A DNA stretch of 35,926 bases from a virus: IMG/VR virus record IMGVR_UViG_3300030085_002975, positions 1 through 35,926 of that record; one strand, written 5' to 3'. Made by a program: the position numbers and the translations under genes. The notes under the pieces were generated by a model. It saw only the letters and a list, made by a program, of their open reading frames with translations. It did not search any database and was not told where the DNA came from. Of this stretch, positions 2,897-29,731 are shown piece after piece. Numbering within the stretch: position 1 is the first letter of the stretch; every line of letters begins with the position of its first letter.

Positions 2897-2931
2897 AAAA
2901 AATCATACTAATACTACTATGTATTAGTATG
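2897..2931 (-). terminator. Rho-independent terminator after the tail-fibre operon
   Basis: A perfect 11-bp inverted repeat, CATACTAATAC (2904-2914) and GTATTAGTATG (2921-2931), with a 6-nt loop. On the minus strand it is followed by ATTTTTTA, the order expected of an intrinsic terminator. The stem is AT-rich and therefore weaker than usual. The stop codon of the glycine-rich protein (2924-2926) lies inside the stem. It separates the long structural transcript from the oxygenase run. Confidence 0.7.
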
Positions 2932-3850
2932 TTTCAGTTGCTGTTCCACCTTTTCCACCATCTCCATTGCTTTCTTTTTTATTTTTTCCACCGAAGGCAT
3001 CTTGACCGTTCGCACCGTTGGAACCGCCATTGCCTCCACTTCCGCCTTCTGCCTCAGCGTCATCCTCTCCAGATCTACCCTGTCCACCAGTTGTCATATT
3101 TCCAGCACCACCACCACCATTACCACTACCACCCTTACCAGCAGGGAGTCCATTTCCTCCTCCTCCGCCGCCACCTTCGGCGTCGTTTCTATCACCCCAG
3201 TCATTCTGTTCTGCTCTAGAACCTCCACCACCTCCGCCGCCACCTGCGGAGATATATCCACCATTATTCAGTTGTGCTCCACTCATATATCTCAGACCAT
3301 TAGATCCGTTTCCACCATCTCCACCACTAGCATTTCCTCCGTTACCACCTCTACCAACAACTTTTCCATTAGAAGAAACATCAATAATCATATCAGTTCC
3401 ACTTGGCCAATAGTTAGTGTTACGGGTCTTAAATGCCCAATCACTCTCAGATGCTCCATTACTACTATATGTTCCAGTTATATTGATAAAAATTTTCTTT
3501 CCACCCTGCCATCCACTACTATTTCTACTAGGTTTTGATTTATCAATCTTACCTTGCTTTGTTCCAACAACAACTCCATCACCATAATTTGCTTGTGCAA
3601 GATTACCACCAGTACATTTAACAACTATATTTAATTGCTTACTATAAAAATCACTAAATGCAATTTGTCCTGATTGTGGAACACCAGTATCTAATGGTAA
3701 ATTTGATAAGGATCCAATACTATCACTTACTCTATATCCGCCAAGTCCTCCAGCGGTTTCACCATCATTAGGAGTAATTCCAAATTCATCTCTAATTTGT
3801 CCAAAAGATATTGGATTTCCAGGTATAGGGGGTCCAGGTTGAAGTGCCAT
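2924..3850 (-). CDS. Glycine-rich distal tail adhesin, gp38-like
   Basis: A 308-aa protein from ATG 3850 (MALQPGPP), 5 nt after the upstream fibre gene; a longer in-frame start would overlap that gene. Residues 10-80 carry the ISFGQIRDEFG...SGQIAFSDFYSK pattern seen at the N-terminus of many marine phage structural proteins. A beta-rich middle (about 80-165) follows. From about 167 the C-terminus is a series of glycine tracts (RGGNGGNASGGDGG, AGGGGGGGGS, GGGGGGGNGLPAGKGG) separated by variable polar loops. Glycine-rich arms alternating with variable loops are the architecture of T2-type gp38 receptor-binding adhesins, which cap the long tail fibre. Position after two large fibre genes fits. 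The adhesin role is inferred from architecture, not from seen homology. Confidence 0.7.
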   Translation of the reverse strand: MALQPGPPIPGNPISFGQIRDEFGITPNDGETAGGLGGYRVSDSIGSLSNLPLDTGVPQSGQIAFSDFYSKQLNIVVKCTGGNLAQANYGDGVVVGTKQGKIDKSKPSRNSSGWQGGKKIFINITGTYSSNGASESDWAFKTRNTNYWPSGTDMIIDVSSNGKVVGRGGNGGNASGGDGGNGSNGLRYMSGAQLNNGGYISAGGGGGGGGSRAEQNDWGDRNDAEGGGGGGGNGLPAGKGGSGNGGGGAGNMTTGGQGRSGEDDAEAEGGSGGNGGSNGANGQDAFGGKNKKESNGDGGKGGTATETY

Positions 3851-3855
3851 AGTTA

Positions 3856-5895
3856 TTAGAAGCAATCGTTCCAGGTTGTACCATTCCAAACTTGAAGTTT
3901 GTTGGTATCTGTATTGTAAATAGCAGATCCTGAGGTTAATCCTTGTAAAGTATCTCTAAAAGATGAAGTCATATTCGGGAAAACCACTGGTCTTTGAGCA
4001 TACTCCATGTCCAAAGAATTTTGAGGATTGGTTGTACCAATTCCTACACCACCTTGCTCAGTAACTACAAATTTATTTTGTGCTTCACTGTTTACATCAA
4101 TAACAACATCACTTGCAACAGCATCTGCCGTTGCATTGCTTAAGACTTTAAGGAAAGGCGAAGACTGTCCATTTCCTGAGATGTCTAACTTAGTTATTGT
4201 AGATGCACCACCAACAAGTCTTCCTCTAATCTCACCATTTTCTACAGAATCAAGACCATCACCAGGAACACGAACTACAACTTCATTACCATCAGCGGAT
4301 GTAAGATTTCCACCAACATTTACATTCAATGAGGATACAGATCCAAAATCCAAACTCCCACCAATAGTTAAATTACCTTCAACTTCCAAGTTCTCATTCA
4401 AATGAACATTATTAGTGAATGTTGAGATACCTTGGACGTGCAATCTATGTTGTGGATTTGTAAATCCGATACCCAAATTACCCTCATATGTGAGGGACAT
4501 CATTCTTGTATCTTTATTATGCCAGTGGAAAGCACCTGTATCTAAACCGACAGGACCTGCCTGAAGATAATAGTTGATATTTCCATTACCATAATTTAAA
4601 AAATCTAGAGATTGTAATCCACTATATGGAGATGCACTGCCTTTATATGCATATCTTATTTGACCATTAGAACCAGTTTCTGTTTCTGAAGTTCCAATAG
4701 TAATTCTCGATTCACCAAAATCACTCCACAACTTTATAGTTGCAGGTATGGTGTCAGTTGTTGTGACACCAGAATTGGTTCTATCATATGCTCTGTTAAT
4801 AAACAAATCGGCAGTATTTGATGTACTACCACCAATCTCTACAACTCCAGTCTTAAAATCTGTTCCAATACCAATCCGAGCATCTACTGTTGCTAAACCA
4901 ACTTTTATTTGTTCAATATCTACAACAGCATCTGATGTAAGTGCTGTTGCTGTTGTTGCTGTACCAGTCAAGTTACCAGTAACATCACCAGTAATACCAC
5001 CAATAAAACTAGATGCCGCAACTGCTGTCGCAGTTAATATACCTACAACAATATCTGGAGTTCCAGTTAAACTTTGTGCAGTAGATGCTGTTCCAACAAC
5101 ATCACCAGTAACATTACCAGTAACATTACCAGTAATATTTCCTGTGAATCCTGAAGTAGCTGTAATGAATCCTGCTTGAACATCGTCTCCAGTAAAAGCC
5201 TCTCCTCCAAATCTAGATGCGTTAACATTACCAGTTACAGTAAAACTAGATGGAAGTTTAGTTTCTAACAATATTGGAAGTCTATCATTAGAAAGTGTTC
5301 CAGATGTTATATTGTTTGCATCAAGAAGAGTTAAATCAGAACCAATACCAACAAATTTATTGGAAGTTGTAACACCAGTAATGAATACATCACCAGTAGA
5401 ATTGATACCTACACCAGATGTAAATCCTACCGAAGTATTATCAGCATTACCACCTACTTGGAAAGTAAAACGGGGATCTACAGTCCCTACACCTACGTTT
5501 CCTTGAGCATAGATGCTTGTATATCCTAGTCCTGCATCAATATCAACCCATTGTGATGCAGGCATCCCTGTAAGAAATCTAGCATCACCATAGAAAGTAA
5601 CAATTCCAGTTCCAGCAGCAGTAATAATACCACTGCTAATAGAAACACCCGCACCGATTGCATCAGTGAAGGTGATTGTAGTTACTCCCGCAGTTCCATT
5701 AACTTCTAAGAATCTAGAGTAAAGAGATGCTGCTGTTGCAAATCCAGAGATGGATGCATTTCCATCACGAACATCCAAGATTTCAGTCGGAATCGTTGTT
5801 CCAATTCCGACTAAACCAGTTGGACTTACTACCAGATTATCATTATCAACCTGGACACCATTACGAAAATTAAACTGCTTGTTATAATTCGCCAT
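3856..5895 (-). CDS. Tail fibre-like structural protein
   Basis: A 679-aa protein with no predicted enzymatic motif. It starts MANYNKQFNFRNGVQV and is built from beta-structured fibre repeats: VGIGTTIPTEILDV, VGIGTVDPRFTFQV, LGIGFTNPQHRLHV and VGIGTTNPQNSLDM at intervals, plus a run of short GNVTGNVTGDVVGTAST-type repeats at about residues 250-320. The C-terminus (SAIYNTDTNKLQVWNGTTW) is a common tip motif in phage and bacterial fibre proteins. The repeats are visible in the DNA as tandem accagtaac-type copies near 4970-5150. It follows the 2316-aa fibre gene and its own CTAAATA box. Probably a long or side tail-fibre subunit; the exact position in the virion is unknown. Confidence 0.78.
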   Translation of the reverse strand: MANYNKQFNFRNGVQVDNDNLVVSPTGLVGIGTTIPTEILDVRDGNASISGFATAASLYSRFLEVNGTAGVTTITFTDAIGAGVSISSGIITAAGTGIVTFYGDARFLTGMPASQWVDIDAGLGYTSIYAQGNVGVGTVDPRFTFQVGGNADNTSVGFTSGVGINSTGDVFITGVTTSNKFVGIGSDLTLLDANNITSGTLSNDRLPILLETKLPSSFTVTGNVNASRFGGEAFTGDDVQAGFITATSGFTGNITGNVTGNVTGDVVGTASTAQSLTGTPDIVVGILTATAVAASSFIGGITGDVTGNLTGTATTATALTSDAVVDIEQIKVGLATVDARIGIGTDFKTGVVEIGGSTSNTADLFINRAYDRTNSGVTTTDTIPATIKLWSDFGESRITIGTSETETGSNGQIRYAYKGSASPYSGLQSLDFLNYGNGNINYYLQAGPVGLDTGAFHWHNKDTRMMSLTYEGNLGIGFTNPQHRLHVQGISTFTNNVHLNENLEVEGNLTIGGSLDFGSVSSLNVNVGGNLTSADGNEVVVRVPGDGLDSVENGEIRGRLVGGASTITKLDISGNGQSSPFLKVLSNATADAVASDVVIDVNSEAQNKFVVTEQGGVGIGTTNPQNSLDMEYAQRPVVFPNMTSSFRDTLQGLTSGSAIYNTDTNKLQVWNGTTWNDCF

Positions 5896-5911: not shown

Positions 5912-8900
5912 CTAGTTATTTAGTCTCTCTTCAAGACTAGAAACCTTATCACTAAGTTCTTTAATTGCTTCAATCAGAAGTGGAACAATCTTTTCATATT
6001 TAACAGTTATGTAATCATGACCAACTGGTGCTGGACATACAGCCTCTGGAAGAACTTTTTGAACTTCTTGTGCAGAAACACCAACATGAGATATTTCTGT
6101 ATCAAAACCAATAGTGGCGGCAGTTTCATTGAAGTTAAATGTAAATCCATTTAAGGAACAGACTTTATCAAGAGCATTGGTCAATCCAACCCTATTAGTC
6201 TTCAGGCGATCATCAGAAACAAAAGCAACAACATCACCTGTTACGAGTAACTCATGAGTACTCTCTTTGAATTTGATGTCATTATCTCTGTATATTTTAC
6301 TATACGTTCCATCAGGTGTTCCATTTCCAACCACACACATTGGATGTTCATCACCAGGTGCATCCATTGCTCTTCCAATCAGAACTGCATCTGCTTGAGT
6401 AGCAGTACCAGCAAAATTAGTTGCAGTAACCGTGTTACCGTTTAAAGTAATATTATCAACTTTTGCAGATCCAACTACAGTTAATGCTCCAGCAATATTA
6501 GTCTTATCTAAGGTAGTATCACCATCAACGTCTAATCCACCATCAACGTCTAAGTCACCACCAACATTTAAGTTCTTTTCAATACCAACACCACCTTCTA
6601 CAATAATCGCACCACTATCTTTACTATTAGATTGAGTAGTAGTATGGAAAATAGTATCAGAGAAGACTTCAACGTCTTCTGTCCCTTTGTTACCACTAAG
6701 TTTTAATGTACCAGATCTAGTTGTAATAAACTGGTTACCACTCGTAGAAGAACCATTATAATGACCGATTTGAATCATACCAATGTGTGCTTCGGCAAAC
6801 GCTTTGGATGTAGATCCAAGAGGAACACCATAACCACCGTTTACAGCAGCATCTACAGTAGGTAGAATACCACTGATAAGTGACGTTGAAGCATCTGAAT
6901 CACCTATCTCAATTTTGTTAGCGATATATGCTTCAGAGAATGGGAGTGATGAAGTACCAAGATATACATTCGCCGCACTACCACCACCAGGAGCACCATG
7001 AATTGCGGCAACCTTTGAACAAGATGTGTTACCTGGTTGTGCAGAACAAGTTTGATCAAACTGAATGGGACCAGGAGCATTTGCAACGACACCAGCAATA
7101 CCTGTTTCTAAGGTATTCATCTTGGCGACAAGTTTACCGCCTTGAGAGTGACCAAACAGATAAACATCTCCAATAGTTTTGCTACCACCCTGACCAGCAA
7201 TATATCCATTCAGAGAATCTTTAACCCATCCAACTGCTGCTCTAGTATATGCAAGGTTATCACCCATTAAGAATGTTGATGTCTCTGTACCAACACCAGG
7301 TAAATTATACTGATCTGAACTAGAAATATGGTCTTGAGGATATGCAGCAGAGAAGATAATCTTATCTCTTAGGTTAAGAGTATTTGGATTCAGGAAGTGA
7401 TTAAGTGAACCTTCTGCTGCGGATGCGATAGTTCCACTAGCAACAGTTCCATGGAATACAACTACAACATCAATTTGACCTGCGGATAAACCTGTAGGAA
7501 CATATAATTTACCCATAACTGGGTATGATGTACCGCCTACACTATGAGTTTGACCATCTGTTGGGACAATAGTAAACTGTTGATTTGCAATAGCACCAGA
7601 TGGATTAGTTCCACCAACGGCATTTCTGATCGCTGCCTGAAGTGTAGCACCATTTGCATTTTGATTTGTAAATGCCGCGTGTCCTCCAGTAGCAACTGTT
7701 GTGAGAGATGCTGTAGCATTAGCAGGAATTCCCTGAACAGAAGTTACATAAGATTGTAACCAAGCAGGTTGATTGCCAGCACCTGTACCATCGTCTAGTG
7801 CTTGAGTGAATAGTATTGGTGCATTATGTGTGTTAGTCCAACTTTCAAGACCGATTGTATAGTATATTGATGAACCACCACCACTAGCAGGAACAAGACC
7901 CGTTTGGAATTCAGACAGACCCTGAACATTCAATGTTCCATTCAAATCTGTATCATTACAAACGAACAACTTACCACCAATTGCAACACCACCTTCAACT
8001 CTAAGAGCAGCAGTTTGTGCTCCTTGACCACTACATGCGGTAGGATTGCTGTTTGACTTGATATAAACTCTTCCAGCAGTTCTGAGTGAATCTGGTACAC
8101 CATTCAGTACAAGAGTCTGTGCAAATCTAACATCACCAGTGAAAGTAACAGGACCATCAAACTGAGACAGAATCTGCTTAGACTTACCACCCTCAACCAG
8201 GATTCTTTCCTTAACAACAATCTCATCAAATACGACAGAGAGTCTGTTAGGATCTTCACCAGTTATGGTTGGAGTTGGAACGTCAAATGTCTTCTGCTCA
8301 CCAGACTGTGCAGAATACTTGGTGTTACCAATGTAGAAGTCACCATCACTGTCCATACCAGTGTAGAGAACAGTACCGCAAGCAGTTTCTTGAGACTGTG
8401 AGAGAAACTCTTCATTTTCGCTAAGAGTCTTAACCTGAACCTGTGGAAGACCTGTAGAATAGTTACCAGGACCATAACCAAGATATTCAAAGGTATGACC
8501 AGATGCACGAAGAATCGAAGGTCTACGAAGTTCGATTGGTGCTAATTTAATCTTCTTAATAAGAGTATTAGTTGTATGAGTTTCAATAATGGTTCCCATA
8601 GAACCACGAATAACTTGAATCTCATCAAAACCAGTTCCAGTCAAGGAACTGGATCTAACCCTCATAATTTCATTATTTACTTGGATGTAGCATCCAACTG
8701 GGAATCTACCTTCAATTTTGTTAGATGTTCCGTTTGGATTCTGTACTCTAAACTGACCATCACCAACTCCAATAGATTGAGCGGTATATAAAGTCTCGTT
8801 GTCGTAGAATGTGTGAAGTCTAGTTCCAATATTCTCGCCAAGATTATCAGCAGAAGCATTGTTATCAGACAATGCGTGCTTCATAAACTGAGTAGCACTA

Positions 8901-11900
8901 CTAATATTCTCTGTTGTGTTAATTGTGAATGTAATAGAAGTTGCACTAGTAACAAGATAATCACCTAAGTTCTCATTGCTTGCATCCAGAAGTCTTACTC
9001 TGTTTCCAGCAACAAGACCTACACCCTTTGTAGATGTAAATACATTTACAGTGCTTGATACTGTATGATTACTGATAGTACCAACTCTACCAACAACAGT
9101 TACATATTCACCAGCATTAATTTGTGGGTCATTAGCAGTCTTAACAATAGTGATTTGTCTCTTATTACTGGTTGCTGAAATCTTATAGTAACCACCAGTA
9201 GCAGTACCAATACCAGTTACCTGAACATAATCACTATTAGAGTCAGTAATATCAGCAGTATTTACAGTGATATTAGCAGAACCAGTTGTTCCTCCGATTT
9301 GTCTAGTATCAAAGTAAAGAATCTCACCATTGGTATATCCAGAACCTGATTCAATAATACTTACATTATCTACTTCGCCACTAGAGTTTACATTTACCTC
9401 AGCAGTAGCACCATCCCAAACAAGATTGAGTGCCTCAAGATTGCTAGGTGGTTGATTGTTATTATTGATAAGTCTTACATTATGGTAGACTCCAGGATTG
9501 TGTCCAGAACCACCAGAAAGTGATGTGAATGATGTAATACCAGATAATCCATGATCTTGAGATAATGTGAGAATAGGATTAACATTTGAACTTACTTCCG
9601 TAATCTCATTACCATAAGAATATGCCGTCATGAACTTGTCGGCAGTTTCTCTAGTAATACTTCTCTTCAGATCGTTTGTAACAACTTCTCCTAAAGGAGT
9701 TCTCTTAGCATAAGATACTGCTGCTGGTGGATTGGGATCAAAGTTATCTCTATCTAACTGTGGATAAAGATCGGTGATGTTTTGACTATACTTAATATCT
9801 CCAAATGTTCCGCTAGGTTGAGATATAGAATTACCAGCGTTCAGTACATACAGATAGAAAACACCATCTTGAATATCCTTGATGTAAGGAGTGATAACTT
9901 CTACACGATAAACATAGAGATTCTCCTGAGCATCATTTCTACTGAATGTAGGAATGGACTTATTTCTAATATTACTATCAAATGATGCATTTGCTGGAGC
10001 ATGAGTAATATCGAGAATATCTACATCACCAGTGGTAAATGTCTTAGAATCTGGAGTACTCTTAACTTTGAAAGAACCATTAAATCCAAAATTATCTTTG
10101 GCGGTTACATTATCAGAACTAGTTACATTTCTGATTACAACAGTATCATTAATTTTTAAGTCGTGATCTCTTTCAGCAACAAATCTAATAGTATTTGTTG
10201 GGTTGCTATAAGTACAAGTGCTTATAAATCTTGGATTACGATCAAAATCGTATTCTCCTGGTGTAATATTGTTGGAAGGATCTGCTGTAAGTGAAATTGT
10301 TGTTTTAGTAAAATCAGTAGCAGACCTTACATTATTACTATTAGAATCTTGTAAAATAAATCCACTTACAGGATCTCTAGCATTTTCAAGTTCCTTAGGA
10401 ACAACATAACGCAGTTTGTAAATCTTCTCGTCAATACTTCTTCCGTCTTCAATTCTCTTGAAGTATGAGATTTCAGAGTCTCCACTAATTCCTTCAAGAT
10501 GAGTTTTAAGAGTGCTACCAGATTTTACATAAACAAACCAGTTACCTCGTACATAATCAAACTGAATTGGATGACCAGTTTCACCAACTTTCTTATCAGA
10601 GATTCTACTTTCAACTCTAATTTGTTCACCAAGGAAACTTGTGATATAAATTGGATTTGCTGCATCAGCATTGGTCTTTGATGACGCAATCTGGAACTGA
10701 GTACCTGTTAGAACAATCCCATCAGTTCTAGATGAGTTTTTAGATGCATTGACGACATAATAAACTTTACCTTCTTCCAATCCTTCTGGAAGGTCGCCAG
10801 TTTCACTAAAAACACGAATTGATTCACCGTTTAGGAGATTGTGACCTCCTACAGTATTATAAATTGTTTGTCTTCCAGTAGTATCTGAAGCAGGAGTTGT
10901 AATAGTAACTCCATCATATACCTTTGCAGATGTATCAGTACCATTACATACATTAGACAAAGGAGTTGGAGTCTCGTTGGTCATCAAGACCTCAGCAAAA
11001 TACTCATTGCCGACAGGATCTCTGAGGTAGATTTTTTCACCTACTCTAGCACCAACTCTATATCCCTGAGAAATTGCTGGAGGTTCAATATCTAAGGAAG
11101 AATATCCTAACAAGTATATTCTTTGATCATCTGAAGCAGAAGTTATAAAGTCACCATCAAACTGAACCCATTCAATCTCTGCATCTATTGCATCAACAGA
11201 TCTAGGTGTAACAACTCCAGTTACAAATCCCTTGTCATCTTTGTTGAAAGCATCCTTCTTAAATCCATCGGAAGCCAGCGAGAATTGACCGAAGTTGGAG
11301 TTAGAGTTAGTGATGGAAGCGTCACCACCACTTAAACACTCAAAGTGCTTATGGAAACCAATAGCAAAGACCGAAACGATCTGAATGACCGCATCGTTGG
11401 ACATCTTAATGTGAGTCGTCTTCCAACCATCTCTATAAACAGCATCAGAATCTAAGTGGAAGACATTAGCATTATTGGTTGCTGAAGACTCGGAAGAAAG
11501 TTTGTCTCCAGTAACTTTTATGCTACCATTGAGACCACTACTCCACTGTCTGTTAGACTCATTATACTTAACGAACGCACGGTCATCTTTTTGAAGAGAT
11601 ACAGCAGTGAACTGTGCAACAACCATAGAACGGAATCCATCTGCTCTGGATCCATCGGCGTGCATACCATTCATGCCATAGACAGAACGGAGAGAGCAGT
11701 TAAAGATGTATGGAGATGCACCAGATACGGTATCAGTCTCAATAACAACTGCTGCACCAGCACCAGGAGCAAGACCAGCACCCTGACCAGCAGGAAGGTT
11801 AGATCTTACAAATGGGAGTGCATATGTGAATACAGTATCACTAATAACTTGAACAACTTTTGTAGAAATATTGTAGTCTTCTACGTTAATATTCTGAATC

Positions 11901-12862
11901 TTGATTGGAGTTCCAGAGTTTAGACCGTGAGGAGTCTGAGTTGTAACTGTAACAACAGTTCCAGGGGTTGCACCATCACCAGAAATAATATTGGTGATAG
12001 TAATTGGGTCAGCAGCAAATGCACCAACGATTTCAAATTCTGGGCGTTGCTTAGCAAAAGAACCAGGAGATGCTGGGAACTTCTGGTCAATTTCTCTACC
12101 AGATGCTCTGTTGAAAGCGTTACTAACCTTGCTATAGTACATATCAAGGTCGGTGAGTTGATATCCACCTGGGATATTCACACCATCAGCATACTCAAAA
12201 CAGGTAAGTTTGTGGTGAGAGAATGTGGGTTTGGAGCGATTATTGACTGAGAAATCTCTTGGATCGGTATATACTAATCCAGACTCATCACCATCAAAGA
12301 AAGTAAACTGCCAGAAGTAACATGCACCAGTGATTCTGAAGATTGCACTATTTGGTGCATCTAAATCTGTTGGGTTTGGAACATACTTTGGTCTAACCTT
12401 AGTCTTTCTTAAATCTAGACCAACAATCGAAGTACCACGAGGGATAATGATACCACCATTAATACTGTTAAACTTATACAGGATATTATCTTCCTGTGTA
12501 AGGTCAAAATTAGAATTGAGAGTAAGTGTTAACTCTGTCTGAGCATTAGTTTCGGAACCGCCAGGAGCAACAGAGATTGCATTTCCGTTTGATTCCTTGA
12601 TAGCATAACCAGGTCTATTATCAATCAGGTGCTCACCTGGAAACACAAGGATAGTAGTCTTTTCTACCAGGTCGTTATCATCACCTCTCAGATAAGAGAA
12701 TCTTGCTGACTCCAGCAATGCTCTCTGGATAGTCTTGAAGGGTTTAGTTAATGAATTACCCTGGTTTTCAATACCATCAGTAGAGTCAAGGTCGTTAGGG
12801 TTAACGTATAGAATGCGACCTTCGGCATTCTTGATAAAGTTCTCAAGCTTATTAAGAGGCAT
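5912..12862 (-). CDS. Giant tail fibre/tailspike-like protein with embedded hydrolase-like domain and S74 chaperone
   Basis: A 2316-aa protein. The N-terminus (LYVNPNDLDSTDG...SLTKPFKTIQRALLES, about 18-52) resembles the first turns of right-handed parallel beta-helix (pectate-lyase-like) tailspikes. The middle is long and beta-rich. About residues 1660-1965 look like a partial alpha/beta hydrolase: strand VVVVFHG (H1804-G1805), nucleophile elbow GHSQGG (S1906) and strand VAAIHG (H1955). Fibre repeats follow, then a C-terminal Peptidase_S74 intramolecular chaperone: SDDRLK with S2216 and K2221, GVSAQEVQKVLPEAV and a coiled-coil end. Family members trimerise the fibre and cleave themselves just before the serine. 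Start ATG 12862 follows an ATAAATA box. Likely a host-recognition fibre; the receptor is unknown. Confidence 0.85.
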   Translation of the reverse strand: MPLNKLENFIKNAEGRILYVNPNDLDSTDGIENQGNSLTKPFKTIQRALLESARFSYLRGDDNDLVEKTTILVFPGEHLIDNRPGYAIKESNGNAISVAPGGSETNAQTELTLTLNSNFDLTQEDNILYKFNSINGGIIIPRGTSIVGLDLRKTKVRPKYVPNPTDLDAPNSAIFRITGACYFWQFTFFDGDESGLVYTDPRDFSVNNRSKPTFSHHKLTCFEYADGVNIPGGYQLTDLDMYYSKVSNAFNRASGREIDQKFPASPGSFAKQRPEFEIVGAFAADPITITNIISGDGATPGTVVTVTTQTPHGLNSGTPIKIQNINVEDYNISTKVVQVISDTVFTYALPFVRSNLPAGQGAGLAPGAGAAVVIETDTVSGASPYIFNCSLRSVYGMNGMHADGSRADGFRSMVVAQFTAVSLQKDDRAFVKYNESNRQWSSGLNGSIKVTGDKLSSESSATNNANVFHLDSDAVYRDGWKTTHIKMSNDAVIQIVSVFAIGFHKHFECLSGGDASITNSNSNFGQFSLASDGFKKDAFNKDDKGFVTGVVTPRSVDAIDAEIEWVQFDGDFITSASDDQRIYLLGYSSLDIEPPAISQGYRVGARVGEKIYLRDPVGNEYFAEVLMTNETPTPLSNVCNGTDTSAKVYDGVTITTPASDTTGRQTIYNTVGGHNLLNGESIRVFSETGDLPEGLEEGKVYYVVNASKNSSRTDGIVLTGTQFQIASSKTNADAANPIYITSFLGEQIRVESRISDKKVGETGHPIQFDYVRGNWFVYVKSGSTLKTHLEGISGDSEISYFKRIEDGRSIDEKIYKLRYVVPKELENARDPVSGFILQDSNSNNVRSATDFTKTTISLTADPSNNITPGEYDFDRNPRFISTCTYSNPTNTIRFVAERDHDLKINDTVVIRNVTSSDNVTAKDNFGFNGSFKVKSTPDSKTFTTGDVDILDITHAPANASFDSNIRNKSIPTFSRNDAQENLYVYRVEVITPYIKDIQDGVFYLYVLNAGNSISQPSGTFGDIKYSQNITDLYPQLDRDNFDPNPPAAVSYAKRTPLGEVVTNDLKRSITRETADKFMTAYSYGNEITEVSSNVNPILTLSQDHGLSGITSFTSLSGGSGHNPGVYHNVRLINNNNQPPSNLEALNLVWDGATAEVNVNSSGEVDNVSIIESGSGYTNGEILYFDTRQIGGTTGSANITVNTADITDSNSDYVQVTGIGTATGGYYKISATSNKRQITIVKTANDPQINAGEYVTVVGRVGTISNHTVSSTVNVFTSTKGVGLVAGNRVRLLDASNENLGDYLVTSATSITFTINTTENISSATQFMKHALSDNNASADNLGENIGTRLHTFYDNETLYTAQSIGVGDGQFRVQNPNGTSNKIEGRFPVGCYIQVNNEIMRVRSSSLTGTGFDEIQVIRGSMGTIIETHTTNTLIKKIKLAPIELRRPSILRASGHTFEYLGYGPGNYSTGLPQVQVKTLSENEEFLSQSQETACGTVLYTGMDSDGDFYIGNTKYSAQSGEQKTFDVPTPTITGEDPNRLSVVFDEIVVKERILVEGGKSKQILSQFDGPVTFTGDVRFAQTLVLNGVPDSLRTAGRVYIKSNSNPTACSGQGAQTAALRVEGGVAIGGKLFVCNDTDLNGTLNVQGLSEFQTGLVPASGGGSSIYYTIGLESWTNTHNAPILFTQALDDGTGAGNQPAWLQSYVTSVQGIPANATASLTTVATGGHAAFTNQNANGATLQAAIRNAVGGTNPSGAIANQQFTIVPTDGQTHSVGGTSYPVMGKLYVPTGLSAGQIDVVVVFHGTVASGTIASAAEGSLNHFLNPNTLNLRDKIIFSAAYPQDHISSSDQYNLPGVGTETSTFLMGDNLAYTRAAVGWVKDSLNGYIAGQGGSKTIGDVYLFGHSQGGKLVAKMNTLETGIAGVVANAPGPIQFDQTCSAQPGNTSCSKVAAIHGAPGGGSAANVYLGTSSLPFSEAYIANKIEIGDSDASTSLISGILPTVDAAVNGGYGVPLGSTSKAFAEAHIGMIQIGHYNGSSTSGNQFITTRSGTLKLSGNKGTEDVEVFSDTIFHTTTQSNSKDSGAIIVEGGVGIEKNLNVGGDLDVDGGLDVDGDTTLDKTNIAGALTVVGSAKVDNITLNGNTVTATNFAGTATQADAVLIGRAMDAPGDEHPMCVVGNGTPDGTYSKIYRDNDIKFKESTHELLVTGDVVAFVSDDRLKTNRVGLTNALDKVCSLNGFTFNFNETAATIGFDTEISHVGVSAQEVQKVLPEAVCPAPVGHDYITVKYEKIVPLLIEAIKELSDKVSSLEERLNN
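5917..5923 (-). promoter_or_regulatory. T4-late-like promoter box CTAAATA upstream of the 679-aa fibre gene
   Basis: Minus-strand CTAAATAAC, about 22 nt before the ATG at 5895, embedded in the last codons of the giant fibre gene (encoding R-L-N-N-stop). T4 late promoters have a TATAAATA -10 and no -35; several genes in this window have the related CTAAATA or ATAAATA box at similar spacing. Confidence 0.5.
6215..6220 (-). other. Predicted S74 autocleavage site in the giant fibre
   Basis: Codons for V2215-S2216 of the 5912-12862 protein. In phage endosialidases and relatives the S74 Ser/Lys dyad, spaced by five residues, cleaves the chain before the serine. Here S2216 and K2221 in SDDRLK keep that spacing, so a C-terminal piece of about 101 aa is expected to be released after trimerisation. 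Confidence 0.7.
6967..7885 (-). other. Alpha/beta-hydrolase-like segment inside the giant fibre
   Basis: This covers roughly residues 1660-1965 of the fibre. Successive elements fit the hydrolase fold: VVVVFHG (oxyanion strand), IIFSAAYPQ, helix AYTRAAVGWVKDSL, DVYLFGHSQGGKLV (nucleophile elbow, S1906), GVVANAPGPI, then VAAIHGAPGGG, after which the sequence returns to fibre repeats. The usual Asp and His after the last strands are not seen; D1936 and H1955 are only candidates. C1939 and C1948 could form a disulfide. It may be an active receptor or polysaccharide esterase, or a binding domain derived from one. Confidence 0.65.
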
Positions 12863-13225: not shown

Positions 13226-13232
13226 TATTTAG
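13226..13232 (-). promoter_or_regulatory. T4-late-like promoter box CTAAATA before the 103-aa gene
   Basis: Minus-strand CACTAAATACC, abutting the 3' end of tRNA-Leu and about 17 nt before the ATG at 13209. The spacing leaves room only for a short leader carrying the strong ribosome binding site. Confidence 0.45.
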
Positions 13233-13317
13233 TGCGAGTGGGGGGACTTGAACCCCCACGGGATTAACTCCCAACAGATTTTAAGTCTGGTGCGTCTACC
13301 GATTCCGCCACACTCGC
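13233..13317 (-). tRNA. tRNA-Leu (UAA)
   Basis: An 85-nt class II tRNA. Acceptor GCGAGTG pairs with CACTCGC, discriminator A. The anticodon loop CTTAAAA gives anticodon UAA. A long variable arm (GGGAGTTAATCCC) and a perfect T arm (GGGGG TTCAAGT CCCCC) are present. The 3' CCA is not encoded. It reads UUA, common in AT-rich phage genes but rarer in marine Synechococcus. Confidence 0.95.
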
Positions 13318-13456
13318 AAGGCATTACACTTATCCTTATGCTATATGGGCGCTACACCCAACATACTGACAGTTTGTAATGGAGCAAAGAGAGTAACCAA
13401 CTCTCAAGATCACAGTGTGGTTAGCACCGTCGCGGGCGAGCTCATTCCCCGTCTAA
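13318..13456 (-). other. Structured spacer between tRNA-Met and tRNA-Leu, no recognised gene
   Basis: 139 nt without an ORF or a complete tRNA. On the minus strand it contains GAGAG TTGGTTA CTCTC (13390-13406; 5-bp stem, 7-nt loop), a TGGG TGTAGCG CCCA hairpin, and a perfect 7-bp closing stem (CATTACA/TGTAATG, 13375-13381 with 13322-13328) enclosing 46 nt. It may be a degenerate tRNA or a small structured RNA co-transcribed with the tRNAs. Confidence 0.4.
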
Positions 13457-13529
13457 TGCTTCCTGAGAGGATCGAACTCTCCTTAGGCAAATTATGAGTT
13501 TGCTGCATTCACCAGATTGCTAAGGAAGC
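13457..13529 (-). tRNA. tRNA with CAU anticodon (elongator Met, or Ile2 if modified)
   Basis: A 73-nt tRNA. Acceptor GCTTCCT/AGGAAGC with discriminator A; anticodon stem GCAAA/TTTGC with loop CTCATAA (anticodon CAU); T arm GAGAG TTCGATC CTCTC. The paired first base and the absence of the GGG/CCC anticodon stem argue against an initiator tRNA. Sequence alone does not separate Met from lysidine-modified Ile2. It lies only 3 nt from tRNA-Ile. Confidence 0.92.
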
Positions 13530-13532
13530 AGA

Positions 13533-13604
13533 TAGGAACGCCGGGAATTGAACCCGATTCACTCCGTTATAAGCAGAGGGCATTAACCAATATGCGACAT
13601 TCCC
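13533..13604 (-). tRNA. tRNA-Ile (UAU)
   Basis: A 72-nt tRNA. Acceptor GGGAATG pairs with CGTTCCT (one G-U at the end), discriminator A. D arm GCAT ATTGGTTA ATGC, anticodon stem CTCTG/CGGAG with loop CTTATAA (anticodon UAU), T arm TCGGG TTCAATT CCCGG. It reads AUA. UAU anticodons are unusual in bacteria, which normally read AUA with a lysidine-modified CAU tRNA. Confidence 0.88.
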
Positions 13605-20437: not shown

Positions 20438-21097
20438 TTATAAACCTACAGCTGCTTTAGCAGCAGAAAGTGCTATATCTCCACCAGGTATACCTGATAG
20501 ATCTCCTATCGACTTTTGAGCAACAGCCACTGCTAGACTTGCAGTAGGTCCACCTGCAGCAGCAGATGCTGCCCTAGCAATATCTTCTGCATTTAGACCA
20601 CTATATACCTGATTCAGGAAAGACTTAATGTTATCCTCTGTAGCAATACAGTCTGGTCCATAAGAGTGTGGAGCATCACAATATGCTTCTTTTGCCTTAA
20701 TATCAAACTTTTGACCAACATCAAAAGTAGCATTACCACCACACTTAAATTTAATATCTTCCTTTGCTTCCATAATGATATTAGCACCCTTGATCCTAAT
20801 ATCACCATTTTCTTGAGCAGTGATAACTACACTGCCTTTCATACCACTAATTACAATATCTACACCACCACGGTCATTCTTTTTTCCGCCGCCACCAATG
20901 ATTTCAATTGTTTGATCATTGTAGATATGATATACACCTGCCTGATTCATACCACAGAGTGAAATATCACCCGTATCAGTATGAGCATACTTTTCATATA
21001 CACCAGCACCAAGAAATCCATTCGTAGGATTGTTTACATCAATCCTAAACTCTGGTGTATATGAAACAATTTTCCTCCTAGCCCAATTATTAGACAT
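20438..21097 (-). CDS. Stand-alone spike-like beta-structured protein (gp5 C-terminal-like)
   Basis: A 219-aa protein. Residues 75-145 are repeating short strands (VDIVISGMKGSVVITAQENGDIRIKGANIIMEAKEDIKFKC, NATFDVGQKFDIKAKEAY), like the VxIxA-type turns of the gp5/VgrG triple-stranded beta-helix spike. The C-terminal 60 residues are Ala-rich and helical (AEDIARAASAAAGGPTASLAVAVAQ). Seven cysteines or histidines are scattered without an obvious metal site. In T4 the spike is the C-terminus of gp5; here it is a separate gene just downstream of the gp5-like hub gene. A strong ribosome binding site (AGGAGG) and an ATAAATA box precede it. Good evidence for the fold, moderate for the role. Confidence 0.7.
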   Translation of the reverse strand: MSNNWARRKIVSYTPEFRIDVNNPTNGFLGAGVYEKYAHTDTGDISLCGMNQAGVYHIYNDQTIEIIGGGGKKNDRGGVDIVISGMKGSVVITAQENGDIRIKGANIIMEAKEDIKFKCGGNATFDVGQKFDIKAKEAYCDAPHSYGPDCIATEDNIKSFLNQVYSGLNAEDIARAASAAAGGPTASLAVAVAQKSIGDLSGIPGGDIALSAAKAAVGL

Positions 21098-21105
21098 TTA
21101 TTATT

Positions 21106-21122
21106 CCTCCTGCGATATTTAT
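21106..21122 (-). promoter_or_regulatory. ATAAATA box and strong ribosome binding site before the spike protein
   Basis: Minus-strand ATAAATA (21122-21116), overlapping the TAA stop of the gp5-like gene, followed by AGGAGG (21111-21106), 8 nt before ATG 21097. A start of transcription 5-8 nt after the box would fall in or next to the AGGAGG, so the ribosome binding site is the firmer part of this call. Confidence 0.5.
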
Positions 21123-23263
21123 TCGATACAATCAATAACTTGCTTAACAACACCCTGCAATTCTGCTGGTCTTGTTCTAAGTCTAGGTCTCAATATAGCA
21201 CCAGATCCTGTCTTGGAGTTGATAGTATACTCTACATTATCAATAATTGATGCAAATTCTAGAATTTGAATTGGATTACCCTGATCATCAGTCGAACTTA
21301 CAGGAGTTCGAACAACATCTATTATACTTCCATCATCATCAGTATTGATATCATATTCATTACCATAGTTGTCTATAACAGTATCATCTTCTGGATCATA
21401 TCCACCTCCACCATCAATAATATTTGGACCATTTTCATCATCCAGAACGTAATCCTGTTCATCATCTGAAGGTGTATAGTCCTGACCTTCAGTTACAAGA
21501 TAGATATCCGTAATTTCTTGATAGGTATCAGAATCGGGGTCATAATCAATAACTGCTCTAGCAGTAGCACCAAATCCTTGTCCACATTCATCAACAATCT
21601 CAACAAATGGTGGGAATGTATATCCGCCTCCACCATTTACAAGATCAACACCAATCATACTTCCAGTCAAACCTCTACCGCCTTCGGCAATTTGAAGGAT
21701 AGCATTAGCAACACCACCTTTACCTTTTCCACCACCAAAGATTTTAATTTTAGTTCCACCACATCCACCAAGTTCTGGGGGACCAGCATAACAGTTACCA
21801 AGAACACTCTCAAATCCAGGAGCAGAAACACTTGGATTTGCAAAGTCAAACACACCAAGAGAACCAACGTCTCCAGCAATATCTTGAAGTGCATTAATCG
21901 GTAGTTCAGCAAGTGCTTTAGCTTCATTAGCAACTGCTAAGATTTCTTCTACAGGAACACCAGTCTTATCACTACTACCCTTACCAATCACCCACTCTTC
22001 AGAAGCCAAATCAAATTCTGGAGCAACTTCATTACATCCAAGTTTATCGGCAAGACCCAAAATTGCTTCAGCAGTACTACCAAGGAATCCTGCAACACTG
22101 AATCCTCCAGAGATTACCTCTAAAGCGGACATAAATGGTTTGAGAAAACTTGATACACCACCAATAATATGGTTCATCAGAGCACCAACAACTTGATCTC
22201 CAATACATTCAACAAAGTTGAATACATTCTCTGCTACATTTGTTAGTACACCATTGATAATGTCTCCAAGACCATTGATAATATTATTTGCTATGCACGG
22301 AATAGCATCAGATAACTCTTTTACTGGACCAATAAGTAATGCTTGAGCAATTGTTCCTGCTTTTGTTGCAATAGGATCACTTTGTGTTGCGGCAAAGACG
22401 GTTGCGTAAACACCATCAAACAATACCTGCAATCCACCATTCAATACAGGAACTAAAGCATTGGTAAGATTTTTGGTCATGTCACCAACGACTTTCATAG
22501 CACTCTTTTGAATACTAGCAGTCATACTATCAATTTCACGCATAATAAACTGTCTTGCACCACCGACAGCATCTTTTACATTAGCAGTAATAGTTTGAAT
22601 TTTAGAAACAAAGTTTCCAACCTCTGTTTTAATTGTTCTAACAGCACTAGCGGGATCTGAAGAACCTGCTAATACTTTCTGACCAATCGCAGGTGAAGCA
22701 GATTTTAATGCTGTTTCTGTACTTGCATTTTGACCTGTCTTTTCTCCTACTTTATCAGCAGTCTTCTTGTCAGTTGCAACAGGAGAAACTTGGGATAAAG
22801 AACTCTGTTCATTTGACTGACTATTTGCAACAATACCACCATCGTTCTTTACCTTCTCAGTATTACCTGAAAAGGGAACAAAGGGTGAAACAAATTCGTT
22901 AGTTGGAACTTGAGAAGTTCTTCCAAAGACTCCCATGATGACAGGAACCTGACCATTATCACCATCAAGGAAGAATCCAAATACAGTATCACCAGGAGCA
23001 ATAGAAACTGATGTTGCCCTATTCTGAGCACCAGAACCATCAGTGGTTCCCATCAAGATGGTTGCCCAAGGTAAGTCCTTATTAGGAAGTTCTACAACAC
23101 TGTATGGATGATAACCAAGAATACGAACCTTGATACGATTGCCCCATCCACCACCATTCTGCTGAAGGTCATAGTCTTCACCTTCAGGGGGAATTTGTCC
23201 CACCCACCAGCGGAACCCATCCCGCCCCATAAAATTAGTTTTTAAAAATGACTCCTCTAACAT
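21119..23263 (-). CDS. gp5: Baseplate hub protein with gp5-type OB-fold
   Basis: A 714-aa protein. The N-terminus (FRWWVGQIPPEGEDYDL...GWGNRIKVRILGYHPYSVVELPNKDLPWATILMG, SVSIAPGDTVFGFFLDGDNGQVPVIMGVFG) is the gp5/VgrG-type OB-fold of the baseplate hub. A long mostly helical middle with hydrophobic stretches follows, then a Gly/Asp-rich C-terminus with EYDINTDDDGS-like turns. T4 gp5 also contains a lysozyme domain and a beta-helix. I see no lysozyme catalytic block here, and the beta-helix is in the next gene. It probably sits on the gp27-like ring encoded just upstream (1-nt overlap). Alternative start MGRDGF at 23230 exists. Confidence 0.82.
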   Translation of the reverse strand: MLEESFLKTNFMGRDGFRWWVGQIPPEGEDYDLQQNGGGWGNRIKVRILGYHPYSVVELPNKDLPWATILMGTTDGSGAQNRATSVSIAPGDTVFGFFLDGDNGQVPVIMGVFGRTSQVPTNEFVSPFVPFSGNTEKVKNDGGIVANSQSNEQSSLSQVSPVATDKKTADKVGEKTGQNASTETALKSASPAIGQKVLAGSSDPASAVRTIKTEVGNFVSKIQTITANVKDAVGGARQFIMREIDSMTASIQKSAMKVVGDMTKNLTNALVPVLNGGLQVLFDGVYATVFAATQSDPIATKAGTIAQALLIGPVKELSDAIPCIANNIINGLGDIINGVLTNVAENVFNFVECIGDQVVGALMNHIIGGVSSFLKPFMSALEVISGGFSVAGFLGSTAEAILGLADKLGCNEVAPEFDLASEEWVIGKGSSDKTGVPVEEILAVANEAKALAELPINALQDIAGDVGSLGVFDFANPSVSAPGFESVLGNCYAGPPELGGCGGTKIKIFGGGKGKGGVANAILQIAEGGRGLTGSMIGVDLVNGGGGYTFPPFVEIVDECGQGFGATARAVIDYDPDSDTYQEITDIYLVTEGQDYTPSDDEQDYVLDDENGPNIIDGGGGYDPEDDTVIDNYGNEYDINTDDDGSIIDVVRTPVSSTDDQGNPIQILEFASIIDNVEYTINSKTGSGAILRPRLRTRPAELQGVVKQVIDCIE

Positions 23264-24552
23264 TATTTTTCTTTATTGTTTGGACTAAATTGACCGAAAG
23301 TATCTCTGACTAATTTTGCGGAAGTATATGATCCTTTAGAGTCAAAATGGTGACATAACTCTTTAATCATATATAGACCACTTTGTTCCCGATCATACTC
23401 CTTATTTTTTTGAATTGTCGTAGCAGGAAATAAACATTCAATAACGTTTCCTGCTTCTAAATTAGTATTACAAGCAACAGTAACAGTAAGAGTTTGTGTG
23501 AATAGTGTATTATACCTCATCAAAGATTGAGATTGAAATTCAAGACCATCAGCATTCTTTTCTGTTGATACTCCAACCTCAACCGTTCCTAAATTAACAA
23601 TACCAGTCATTATCCTGGTAGGAACATCACCAATAGATTTATCAGGATCGTCAGCAAACTTTGGAAGTTCCATCTTACCACCAAGATTTCTTGAATTATC
23701 AATGTAATCACTTATCTTAAATTGACCTTTTTCTGGACCAGTAAAGGCAAAGTTCAGTGGATTAAAGTATGCACGGAAACTAGAATATGCACCAAGACGA
23801 AGTTTCTCAAGCATATTCTGATTTCTATTCGTCACGTATTTAATAATCTGAAAATCTTGTGCTTCTTTATTGGGATTTACAATATCAGTAGCATTATATG
23901 TTACTTTCTTTTCTTGAGAAATAAGTTTATCCAAAGACTTGAACTTATATCCACTTTTAGTTTCATAAAAACAATAACCAGCAGTTCCACTTCCTTCAAC
24001 TTCTGGAACACCCTTTGATGCTAACCAGGTCAGCACAGTGAATGGTTTCCTCATATTACCAATGAACCCATACTTGTTCATTGTCTTATCTACTTCCACA
24101 GTCTTTGGAGTTCTCAAGTAATCCTTGATAATCTTCTCAGCAGAAACTGAGATTGGAGAAGACGTTGGAAACTTTACAGGAACTCTAGCAGTTTCATTGG
24201 TGATTGCTTCTCTTGAGCAGAGATTGAGAACAAATGATTCTGATTGATTATTACTGATTACATTGGTTATACTGGAGACATAGAAGTATTGACTCCTGTC
24301 TGAGAAATCTAGTTTATCTTTAATCCTAATAGATACTCTCTCACCACCCCTTAAAGGTAATCCTTGGTATATACCTTTTCCATTGACGGTATTACCAGTG
24401 TTGGTAATCACCATTTTCAGTGTTATTGTTGGTGAGAAGATATCTTCGTAATAATCAATTGATTGAACACCAAGTCTTAGATCAACACTAGTTGACCCAT
24501 CATTAGATTCAATAAGTATTTCTTCGTAAATCGAAGGATCGGACAGAGACAT
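23263..24552 (-). CDS. Baseplate hub protein, gp27-like
   Basis: A 429-aa protein. The N-terminal half has the tandem beta-domain pattern of the gp27/Mu gp44 hub (LGVQSIDYYEDIFSPTITLKMVI, GERVSIRIKDKLDFS...YFYVSSITNVISN...FVLNLCSREAI). The C-terminal part has LTVTVACNTNLEAGNVIECLFP followed by SGLYMIKELCHHFDSKGSYTSAKLVRDTFG, typical of the tube-like hub domain that anchors gp5. Placement immediately upstream of the gp5-like gene supports the pairing. No internal enzyme motif. The orthology is deduced from fold pattern and context, as sequence similarity to T4 gp27 is low. Confidence 0.68.
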   Translation of the reverse strand: MSLSDPSIYEEILIESNDGSTSVDLRLGVQSIDYYEDIFSPTITLKMVITNTGNTVNGKGIYQGLPLRGGERVSIRIKDKLDFSDRSQYFYVSSITNVISNNQSESFVLNLCSREAITNETARVPVKFPTSSPISVSAEKIIKDYLRTPKTVEVDKTMNKYGFIGNMRKPFTVLTWLASKGVPEVEGSGTAGYCFYETKSGYKFKSLDKLISQEKKVTYNATDIVNPNKEAQDFQIIKYVTNRNQNMLEKLRLGAYSSFRAYFNPLNFAFTGPEKGQFKISDYIDNSRNLGGKMELPKFADDPDKSIGDVPTRIMTGIVNLGTVEVGVSTEKNADGLEFQSQSLMRYNTLFTQTLTVTVACNTNLEAGNVIECLFPATTIQKNKEYDREQSGLYMIKELCHHFDSKGSYTSAKLVRDTFGQFSPNNKEK

Positions 24553-26411
24553 TATACGTACTCTAACTCTCTAAGAAGTGCTTTTGTGATAAAACTATTT
24601 AACGTAGTTCCCGTAGGGATACTTAAGTCTGCACCACCTTTTGCTCTTTGTGGAGGAGTTGGTGCTGAACCGCCACCAGTTGGAATTGGAACTGTAATAA
24701 CCTGACCTTTCTTCTCTGGTGTTACTCCTTGAGCAACATAAGTTCTGTTACCTGTTCCTTCAACATTAAGTGTGTTTCCACCTTTTCCACTAATTGTAGG
24801 AACATTATCCGCCTTACCATCAAACTGCACCCTAGACAGACGAATCAATGAAACATAAGGTGCTGGAACCATATCAGGTGTTCCTGATGTCCACGCTACA
24901 CTATTTGCTTCTAAGTGAATATGTGGTCCAGTAGACCTTCCACTATTACCAGTAATTGCAAATGAAGTTCCTGCAGGGACAGTTTCTCCTGACTTTCCAA
25001 TAAGAATCTTACTATTGTGTGCAAATCTAAGATGAACTCCACGAGAAGGAACGTGCAAATCAACCACATATCCATATCCCTTATCATATCTGGAGCCATC
25101 TACTACAGCATCTGCGGTTAAAGAGATGTATAATCCTGCAGCACAAGCAATATCAATACCTTTATGAGGAGCGTTTCTAAAACTCTCCTGCATTCCCATA
25201 GTTGATGTTATAATCGCATTCTCACCAAGAATGTTACTAACATCATCATTAACTCTATACCTAGTGCTCTGGTCAACCTGAGTTATTTCTGGTTGAGATC
25301 TTTCCAGAGCACTAGCCGCTGCTTTTTTGGCGCTAACCATATAGTCTCTATACTTACCAGACTTATAAACAGACCAAGCAGCATACCCTTGGAGTTTATA
25401 GATTTCATATGCCGCTTTAGCATTTGTAAGAGGGTCAAGTAATTCTTCATTAGATTTAATACCAAATAATTTTCTTCTTTCGGGACCCATATCCCCTATC
25501 ATATTAATCTGCCATAAACCATAAGACAGATCACCAGTGTTTGGATTATTGTTTAAAGCAGCACTATCACCTGACGATTCCGCCATAGCAATAGCAGTCA
25601 TTGTAGCAATTTTATCTTCTGGAAAACCTGCTTTTCTAGCTGCTCTAGCAATTTCTTCTTGATTAAATGTGCCTCCAGTTGGAACATCACCATCAAATTG
25701 ACGACCTTGATTTCCAGAACCAGGTTCTTCCTTCTTTCCAGTCTTAATTCCTAGCAATTGTTTTATACCATCACCAAGATAATCAAGAAGATTGAAGGTA
25801 TTAAAATCTTGGATCATTTGTCTAAAATCTTGTTCAAATCTTCGAACTCCATTTTTGACTTTACCTGATGCTTTATCAACTTCAGTCTTTTGGGCAAAGA
25901 AATCAAAACTCATCAATTTGGTAGCAATATCACCAAGATTGGAAGTAAACCCAACGAAGAAATTTTGTACTCCCTCAAACCAGTTCTTTAAAATACCTGC
26001 AGCTTGCTGTATTCTTGTAGTTAAATCTTGAACTGCATCAATGATGACTGGAAGGTTGGTAACAATCCATCCTACCAGAATAGTTCCAAGGAAGTCCATA
26101 ATTCTTCCAAGAAATCCTTTGGTGCTACTTCCAATAACTTTAGATGTTCTCCTGAAAATTCCTCCAACTCTACCTGCTTCAATTAAATCTTCCTGCTCTC
26201 TTCTTCTAACCGCCTCTCTTCTTTTTGAGAAGAGTTGACGCCTTCTCAGTATAGCATCTTTTTTTAATTTATTGCCGTCATTTAAATTACGTATGATAGT
26301 AGATGAAGTACTATTAGCAGCACGAAGACTAGCACCAAAAGCATTGATGGAACTTTGTATCCCTTCAATGCTGTCGCTATTTTTAAGTAGTGATGTTTTT
26401 ATCTTCGCCAT
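24552..26411 (-). CDS. Hub-associated cell-wall hydrolase: lytic transglycosylase plus M23 endopeptidase
   Basis: A 619-aa protein. Residues 1-90 are a charged coiled coil with an Arg-rich block (KRREAVRRREQ). Residues 101-130 are hydrophobic (GRIMDFLGTILVGWIVTNLPVIID). About residues 250-370 are a lysozyme-like/SLT transglycosylase with catalytic Glu candidate E278 (AIAMAESSGD) and SYGLWQIN. About 400-525 are an M23 metallopeptidase with zinc ligands H416 and D420 (PHKGID) and H497-x-H499 (TGPHIHLE). The two domains cut the glycan and the peptide cross-links of peptidoglycan, so this is likely the tail hydrolase that opens the wall during infection. ATGA overlap with the upstream paralogous gene. 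Domain calls are strong. Confidence 0.85.
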   Translation of the reverse strand: MAKIKTSLLKNSDSIEGIQSSINAFGASLRAANSTSSTIIRNLNDGNKLKKDAILRRRQLFSKRREAVRRREQEDLIEAGRVGGIFRRTSKVIGSSTKGFLGRIMDFLGTILVGWIVTNLPVIIDAVQDLTTRIQQAAGILKNWFEGVQNFFVGFTSNLGDIATKLMSFDFFAQKTEVDKASGKVKNGVRRFEQDFRQMIQDFNTFNLLDYLGDGIKQLLGIKTGKKEEPGSGNQGRQFDGDVPTGGTFNQEEIARAARKAGFPEDKIATMTAIAMAESSGDSAALNNNPNTGDLSYGLWQINMIGDMGPERRKLFGIKSNEELLDPLTNAKAAYEIYKLQGYAAWSVYKSGKYRDYMVSAKKAAASALERSQPEITQVDQSTRYRVNDDVSNILGENAIITSTMGMQESFRNAPHKGIDIACAAGLYISLTADAVVDGSRYDKGYGYVVDLHVPSRGVHLRFAHNSKILIGKSGETVPAGTSFAITGNSGRSTGPHIHLEANSVAWTSGTPDMVPAPYVSLIRLSRVQFDGKADNVPTISGKGGNTLNVEGTGNRTYVAQGVTPEKKGQVITVPIPTGGGSAPTPPQRAKGGADLSIPTGTTLNSFITKALLRELEYV

Positions 26412-27880: not shown

Positions 27881-28055
27881 TCTGCTGTTGTGCCTTTAGG
27901 TTTTCTTCTTCAATATACTGTTGGAGGAAAGCAAGGTAAATTTCTTTCTCCCACGGTATCATATTTTCTAACTCTGTCAAGCTATATTTATGATGCTGCA
28001 TCAAGGCAAAATTAATTCGGAAGTATGACTCAAGGTCAGTATGAGCCATACTCAC
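27873..28055 (-). CDS. Small gp51-position hub assembly protein
   Basis: A 60-aa protein (MSMAHTDLESYFRINFALMQHHKYSLTELENMIPWEKEIYLAFLQQYIEEEN), all helical. It overlaps gp26 by an ATGA junction and the downstream hub gene by 8 nt. Cyanophages place a short baseplate-hub assembly factor named gp51 in this spot after gp26; the LTELENMIPWEKEIYLAFL helix also resembles small chaperones that load tape measures. The annotation rests on context and helical pattern, as the protein is much shorter than T4 gp51. Confidence 0.6.
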   Translation of the reverse strand: MSMAHTDLESYFRINFALMQHHKYSLTELENMIPWEKEIYLAFLQQYIEEENLKAQQQNG

Positions 28056-28768: not shown

Positions 28769-28793
28769 TACGATTCATGCACATCAGTAAAAT

Positions 28794-28800
28794 TATTTAG
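28794..28800 (-). promoter_or_regulatory. T4-late-like promoter box CTAAATA before gp26
   Basis: Minus-strand CACTAAATAATT, 25 nt before ATG 28768, in the short gap after the gp54-like stop codon. It would start the long hub transcript. Confidence 0.5.
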
Positions 28801-28805
28801 TGGGG

Positions 28806-29696: not shown

Positions 29697-29697
29697 T

Positions 29698-29704
29698 CTA
29701 AATA
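29698..29704 (+). promoter_or_regulatory. Late promoter box CTAAATA for plus-strand gp4
   Basis: Plus-strand CTCTAAATACTC, ending 27 nt before ATG 29732 and overlapping the 5' edge of the divergent gp54-like gene. It mirrors the minus-strand box at 29725-29731. Confidence 0.5.
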
Positions 29705-29724
29705 CTCTTAGGTGATTGTTTAGT

Positions 29725-29731
29725 TATTTAG
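29725..29731 (-). promoter_or_regulatory. Late promoter box CTAAATA for gp54-like gene
   Basis: Minus-strand CTAAATAACTAAAC, 28 nt before GTG 29696. The ATG of gp4 starts at the next base on the other strand, so the two divergent boxes share one 36-nt intergenic gap. Confidence 0.55.

Follow-up and report, generated by a model that had tools for sequence, protein, structure and literature searches.

The feature at 6967-7885 of the window (the whole stretch of DNA that was analysed, 35,926 nucleotides, contained in a 36.4-kb virus record) is best explained overall as a complete, circularly permuted alpha/beta hydrolase, which occupies residues of about 1666-1956 of a giant tail fibre. We put the probability of this reading at roughly 85%. 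The feature is encoded on the minus strand and corresponds to residues of about 1660-1965 of the 2316-aa fibre (Table 1). The first-pass annotation had picked out GHSQGG with S1906, the oxyanion strand VVVVFHG and the segment VAAIHG, and all three are present as it described, the latter two at residues 1799-1805 and 1951-1956. Its suggestion that an alpha/beta-hydrolase domain is embedded in the fibre was borne out by a confident AlphaFold2 fold, structural matches and invariant motifs. A chance match is ruled out, because the elbow, the oxyanion His-Gly, D1691 and H1728 do not vary among 20 aligned members and an alpha/beta-hydrolase fold is confidently predicted.

Fibre repeats do follow VAAIHG, as had been observed, but the Asp and His that seemed to be missing lie upstream, at D1691 and H1728, the domain being circularly permuted. 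Residues 1674-1731 (..NAPILFTQALDD..QPAWLQSYV..ASLTTVATGGHAAF..) resemble the end of a hydrolase, namely beta7 with the Asp, a helix, and beta8 with the His, and residues 1667-1760, ahead of the oxyanion strand, make up the beta7-Asp and beta8-His half. With this half found upstream, the main argument for a dead binding domain falls away. GHSQGG conforms to the nucleophile elbow G-X-S-X-G and sits between a strand and a helix, the acid and His of the predicted triad lie at the ends of beta7 and beta8 and are invariant in all three orders of the family described below, and the predicted models have the overall alpha/beta-hydrolase fold. The order in the window is acid-His-nucleophile; the usual superfamily order, nucleophile-acid-histidine, is kept in four relatives (L017-L020). 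The domain in the window is therefore a permuted variant rather than an ordinary member of the superfamily. Its topology would run b7(Asp1691)-helix-b8(His1728)-helix-linker-b1 to b6 with H1804/G1805 and Ser1906: the chain would enter and exit the enzyme through the beta6-beta7 loop, the original termini would be joined by a linker of ~11 residues (GGTNPSGAIAN), and Ser1906, Asp1691 and His1728 would assemble into a presumably active triad. The pair C1939/C1948 is a possible disulphide.

Table 1. Coordinates in the window of the fibre gene, the hydrolase module and its predicted functional residues.
Feature	Position	Strand	Remarks
Giant tail-fibre ORF, 2316 aa, S74 intramolecular chaperone at C-terminus	5912..12862	-	
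Peptidase_S74 intramolecular chaperone domain, residues 2216-2275	6038..6217	-	PF13884 E=5.9e-14
Empty site 1, window residues about 783-801	10460..10516	-	Loop filled in orthologous fibres: L017, L018, L020 ordinary; L005 permuted
Entire inserted module, residues 1666-1959, circularly permuted alpha/beta hydrolase	6986..7867	-	Boundaries from relatives and AlphaFold2 model
b7 piece, residues 1667-1714: strand APILFTQ, catalytic Asp (predicted), helix	7721..7864	-	After elbow half in ordinary-order L017-L020
b8 piece, residues 1715-1760: strand, catalytic His (predicted), final helix, linker GGTNPSGAIAN	7583..7720	-	Closes the domain in ordinary-order relatives
N piece, residues 1761-1956: beta1-beta6, including the oxyanion strand and the nucleophile elbow	6995..7582	-	First element in ordinary-order relatives
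D1691, predicted catalytic acid (ALDD, second D)	7790..7792	-	Invariant 20/20
H1728, predicted catalytic base (GGHAAF)	7679..7681	-	Invariant 20/20
S1906, predicted nucleophile (GHSQGG)	7145..7147	-	Invariant 20/20
H1804-G1805, oxyanion HG motif	7448..7453	-	Invariant
C1939...C1948 cysteine pair	7019..7048	-	Invariant

The baseplate-hub protein of the window is nearest to those of Prochlorococcus phage P-SSM2 and of Synechococcus phages (39% over 100%), and the window is therefore the tail region of a T4-like cyanophage. The virus carrying the fibre is marine and infects cyanobacteria. Elsewhere in the window, three tRNA genes (Leu-taa, Met-cat, Ile-tat) are clustered at 13232-13604 (-), immediately upstream of the gene for the giant fibre; a Gp38-type tail-fibre adhesin (PF05268 E=4.6e-06; phrog_2056, host specificity) lies downstream of the fibres at 2924-3889 (-); and the structural gene region includes a protein with an endolysin/metallopeptidase-like segment at 24552-26411 (-; phrog_3572, phrog_7767).

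The first-pass annotation had proposed a fold prediction as a check, and the hydrolase fold was found. AlphaFold2 was run on the monomer with the relatives supplied as alignment. The full-length domain in the window form reached pLDDT 86.5 and pTM 0.86, and the ordinary form of L020 reached pLDDT 82.9 and pTM 0.86. After rotation, the two models contain the same secondary-structure elements: the window model opens with E29-34 H44-56 E64-69 H82-94, followed by E106-111, while the L020 model opens with E2-8, the equivalent of window E106-111, and closes with E230-235 H245-257 E265-270 H282-292. S1906 is residue 252 of the window model, between a strand (242-251) and a helix (253-264). A Foldseek search of the window model against 350,542 PDB chains placed engineered circular permutants of HaloTag (cpHaloTag, HaloCaMP) at ranks 1-5. 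Re-alignment with VIA-align gave Z 13.1-13.8 over 205-214 residues for these permutants; unpermuted hydrolases did not exceed Z 11.3, and most of them aligned over no more than the N half. The L020 model matched lipase 6nkf and the carbohydrate esterases 6xyc/6tkx over its whole length (about 240 residues) with Z 20-21, its best structural matches being lipases, feruloyl esterases, carbohydrate esterases and acylaminoacyl peptidases. The sole match with E below 0.001 in BFVD was a protein of Synechococcus phage S-SCSM1, the only cultured relative found.

Scanning IMG/VR with the domain yielded 22 loci, a set that two profile scans then enlarged. At several IMG/VR loci the blast alignment was split into two pieces in swapped order. 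The domains of the window and of an ordinary-order relative were each divided in three, N (beta1 to VAAIHG), b7 and b8, and these pieces were mapped onto all loci; the b8 piece of L019 was too diverged for this mapping, and its order was read directly from the sequence, which was then aligned. The order b7-b8-N was found in the window and in L001-L008, L010, L012, L014-L016, L021, L028, L030, L031, L033, L034, L036, L037, L042 and L043, the ordinary order N-b7-b8 in L017-L020, and the order b8-N-b7 in L009, L011, L013 and the isolate S-SCSM1 (L023). None of the classified records had a non-cyclic piece order, and each carried one copy of the domain; L022, which is only a fragment, was left unclassified. 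The notable point is that all three possible rotations coexist in one close family. The window domain is 51-82% identical to its relatives over most of their length, and 20 diverse members covering all three orders align end to end once rotated to a common frame. S1906, Gln1907, D1691, H1728, H1804, G1805, C1939 and C1948 are invariant among them. The dN/dS ratio was 0.21-0.50 (11 pairs), and the domain is therefore under purifying selection.

This dN/dS, together with the invariant triad, argues for an active enzyme. The chain joins the permuted form at the beta6-beta7 loop and the ordinary form at beta1 and the last helix. In the alpha/beta hydrolase fold, the beta6-beta7 loop is on the active-site side. 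Since the join points differ, each rotation would shift the attachment points of the enzyme and turn its active site to another facing on the fibre. An esterase or deacetylase role is plausible, because the structural neighbours of L020 are esterases and lipases. The domain is most likely an active esterase acting on esters of the host envelope; it would cleave ester groups (e.g. O-acyl) on the cyanobacterial envelope during adsorption, which we propose because deacetylase tailspikes (PMC8471582) offer an analogy. A domain residing in adhesion proteins might instead act chiefly in lectin-like binding, or be a slow esterase for reversible attachment, with its complete fold and conserved triad retained. 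This we consider unlikely, for the whole triad and the oxyanion motif are invariant over three topologies and 15 insertion contexts, as would be expected of catalysis and not of binding alone.

The permutation could also be intermolecular. The giant fibre is presumably a trimer, as fibres of its kind are, and the rotated order would permit the b7-b8 half to swap and complete the N half of a neighbouring chain. This arrangement is improbable: the monomer folds confidently (pTM 0.86), with the ~11-residue b8-N linker a single chain closes the fold, the structures that match best are themselves single-chain permutants, and S-SCSM1 carries the third rotation in a short protein of 368 aa. We rejected a truncated or decayed hydrolase, which would have lost its Asp/His half and left the remainder as a binding scaffold; the fibre repeats after VAAIHG suit such a decay, but with the Asp/His half present upstream, the triad invariant in 20/20 members, dN/dS of 0.21-0.50 indicating purifying selection and a complete fold predicted, its probability is very small. 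That the rotated order is an assembly artefact, from misjoined repeated fibre modules in a metagenome contig with repetitive fibre genes, is hardly credible, given that >20 contigs have the same order with joins in frame and internal stops absent, that the assemblies L001 and L002 carry a domain 100% identical to that of the window, by which a misassembly of the window contig is excluded, and that the isolate genome of S-SCSM1 is itself permuted.

The hydrolase module is a portable cassette, relatives of which are inserted in the loops of a wide range of cyanophage virion proteins. Clustering of the flanks gave 15 insertion contexts, on which the upstream and downstream flanks agree. The fibre of the window and that of L018 are orthologous, at 82% (residues 1-793), 68% (782-1652) and 59% (1986-2316); the L018 fibre has an ordinary-order module following its residue 799, a place that is unoccupied in the window fibre, and conversely lacks the permuted module that the window fibre has at 1666-1956. 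Two of the 15 contexts hold two rotations each, in homologous fibres. The first is site 1 of the giant fibre, with a permuted module in L005 and ordinary ones in L017, L018 and L020; the second is a Collar-domain fibre, with permuted modules in L012 and L014-L016 and an ordinary one in L019. The module is also carried by tail-fibre and virion proteins that contain Collar, Ig or subtilase domains. In 239 phage records the homologous fibre stretch around site 1 aligns unbroken, some of the alignments stopping short of the site, and among the phage records the domain was found only in S-SCSM1 (two entries). In L010 (4048-7035) and L042 (5611-8412), the permuted hydrolase shares one virion protein with a subtilase (S8) domain, which comes after the hydrolase in L010 and before it in L042. 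The permuted module of L008 (4567-9414) lies in a fibre that contains, in addition, a tail Collar domain and an immunoglobulin-like domain (PF13927, 34.1 bits vs 30). The finding brings an alpha/beta-hydrolase cassette to cyanophage adhesion proteins. We tentatively suggest a wider scenario, which may well prove wrong: the cassette would spread among unrelated cyanophage virion proteins, different rotations would be selected as they alter the facing of the active site, and the rotations would interconvert by recombination between differently rotated copies within the same insertion loop.

The standard hypothesis for circular permutation is duplication followed by loss (PMC11757225). The N-b7 linker (ASTGDGSEPY.SIGLE) is common to the ordinary and the b8-N-b7 forms, with 76% nucleotide identity, and the b8-N linker is common to the b8-N-b7 and b7-b8-N forms. 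Such sharing of linkers among forms is predicted by an intermediate with redundant pieces. We infer that permutation passed through a sequence of this kind: if a copy were duplicated in tandem, or if an ordinary and a permuted copy crossed over within N, the product would have both linkers, and its trimming could produce each rotation. None of the 32 records held a tandem-duplicate intermediate. In the N-piece tree, the b8-N-b7 forms made up a single starred clade, nested with the window in a moderately supported group (94/88); the ordinary-order rows required 3 changes on the best tree, and a single clade for them was not rejected (p-AU 0.063). The tree does not fix the number and direction of the rotation events. 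Sliding identity only suggests a mosaic ancestry of the b8-N-b7 form, its N resembling the permuted form and its b7 the ordinary one. Permutation is usually deduced from distant homologues, long after the event; one family with all three rotations, at homologous sites both empty and filled, makes the route of permutation, including its intermediate and its frequency, testable by ordinary comparative genomics.

No family of Pfam, NCBIfam or PHROG reached its threshold for the hydrolase domain. Abhydrolase_6 scored 16.9 bits against a gathering cut-off of 26.3, Hydrolase_4 scored 11.6 vs 27 bits and Abhydrolase_5 scored 19.9 (L018) vs 27 bits, all below the gathering score. Annotation pipelines are blind to the cassette because its order is rotated and a family model is absent. 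Searches of PDB sequences with the domain gave nothing useful. A cellular donor was not found in 84,980 bacterial and archaeal genomes by two pattern-based scans, which reach close relatives only, and a search of plasmids for relatives of the domain gave none. A literature search that covered few subscription journals found no earlier description of a permuted hydrolase within a phage fibre.

Among known systems, the closest is the S-SCSM1 'tail fiber protein' SSCSM1_235 (A0A6M2ZI79), which has a homologous domain with a conserved triad (69% identity to the window over 77% of the query in tblastn; 57% in the structural match). It differs in having the third rotation, b8-N-b7, in a 368-aa protein instead of a giant fibre, and it is annotated as a tail fibre only; a search of the main text of the S-SCSM1 genome paper (PMC9602691) for fibre and esterase terms found none of them. 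Beside the tail-fibre cluster of this phage, at 21034-30056, are seven genes annotated as 2OG-Fe(II) oxygenases. The engineered HaloTag permutants 8b6p, 8b6o, 8b6n and 6u2m resemble the window domain in placing beta7-beta8 first and in the fusion of the original termini, but they are man-made from a haloalkane dehalogenase and share only 10-12% identity with it. The nucleophile of HaloTag is an Asp, compared with Ser in the fibre domain. The esterases and lipases of ordinary order (6nkf, 6xyc/6tkx, feruloyl esterase 7xrh and cinnamoyl esterase 3pf9) have the L020 fold over its full length, with Z 19.7-21.0; they differ in being unpermuted, about 12-17% identical and found outside phage fibres. 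SGNH deacetylases have a fold and a nucleophile motif unlike those of alpha/beta hydrolases, and no GDS of the SGNH/GDSL block I motif GDS(L) occurs within the module, whose nucleophile motif is GHSQGG. The SGNH-type deacetylase tailspike or tail fibre of phage Aristophanes deacetylates surface polysaccharide (PMC8471582). Like the fibre hydrolase, such deacetylase tailspikes are borne on the virion and offer a model for its possible action, though they are unpermuted. For the window model, 2d80, the Penicillium funiculosum PHB depolymerase, was not among the matches listed (best 50). This enzyme was reportedly described by Hisano in 2006, in a paper that PMC11878206 cites, as a natural circular permutant of an alpha/beta hydrolase, and for its type we know of no case of three rotations coexisting in one close family. 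The fibre domain is an alpha/beta hydrolase in natural circular permutation, and the coexistence of all three rotations is remarkable.
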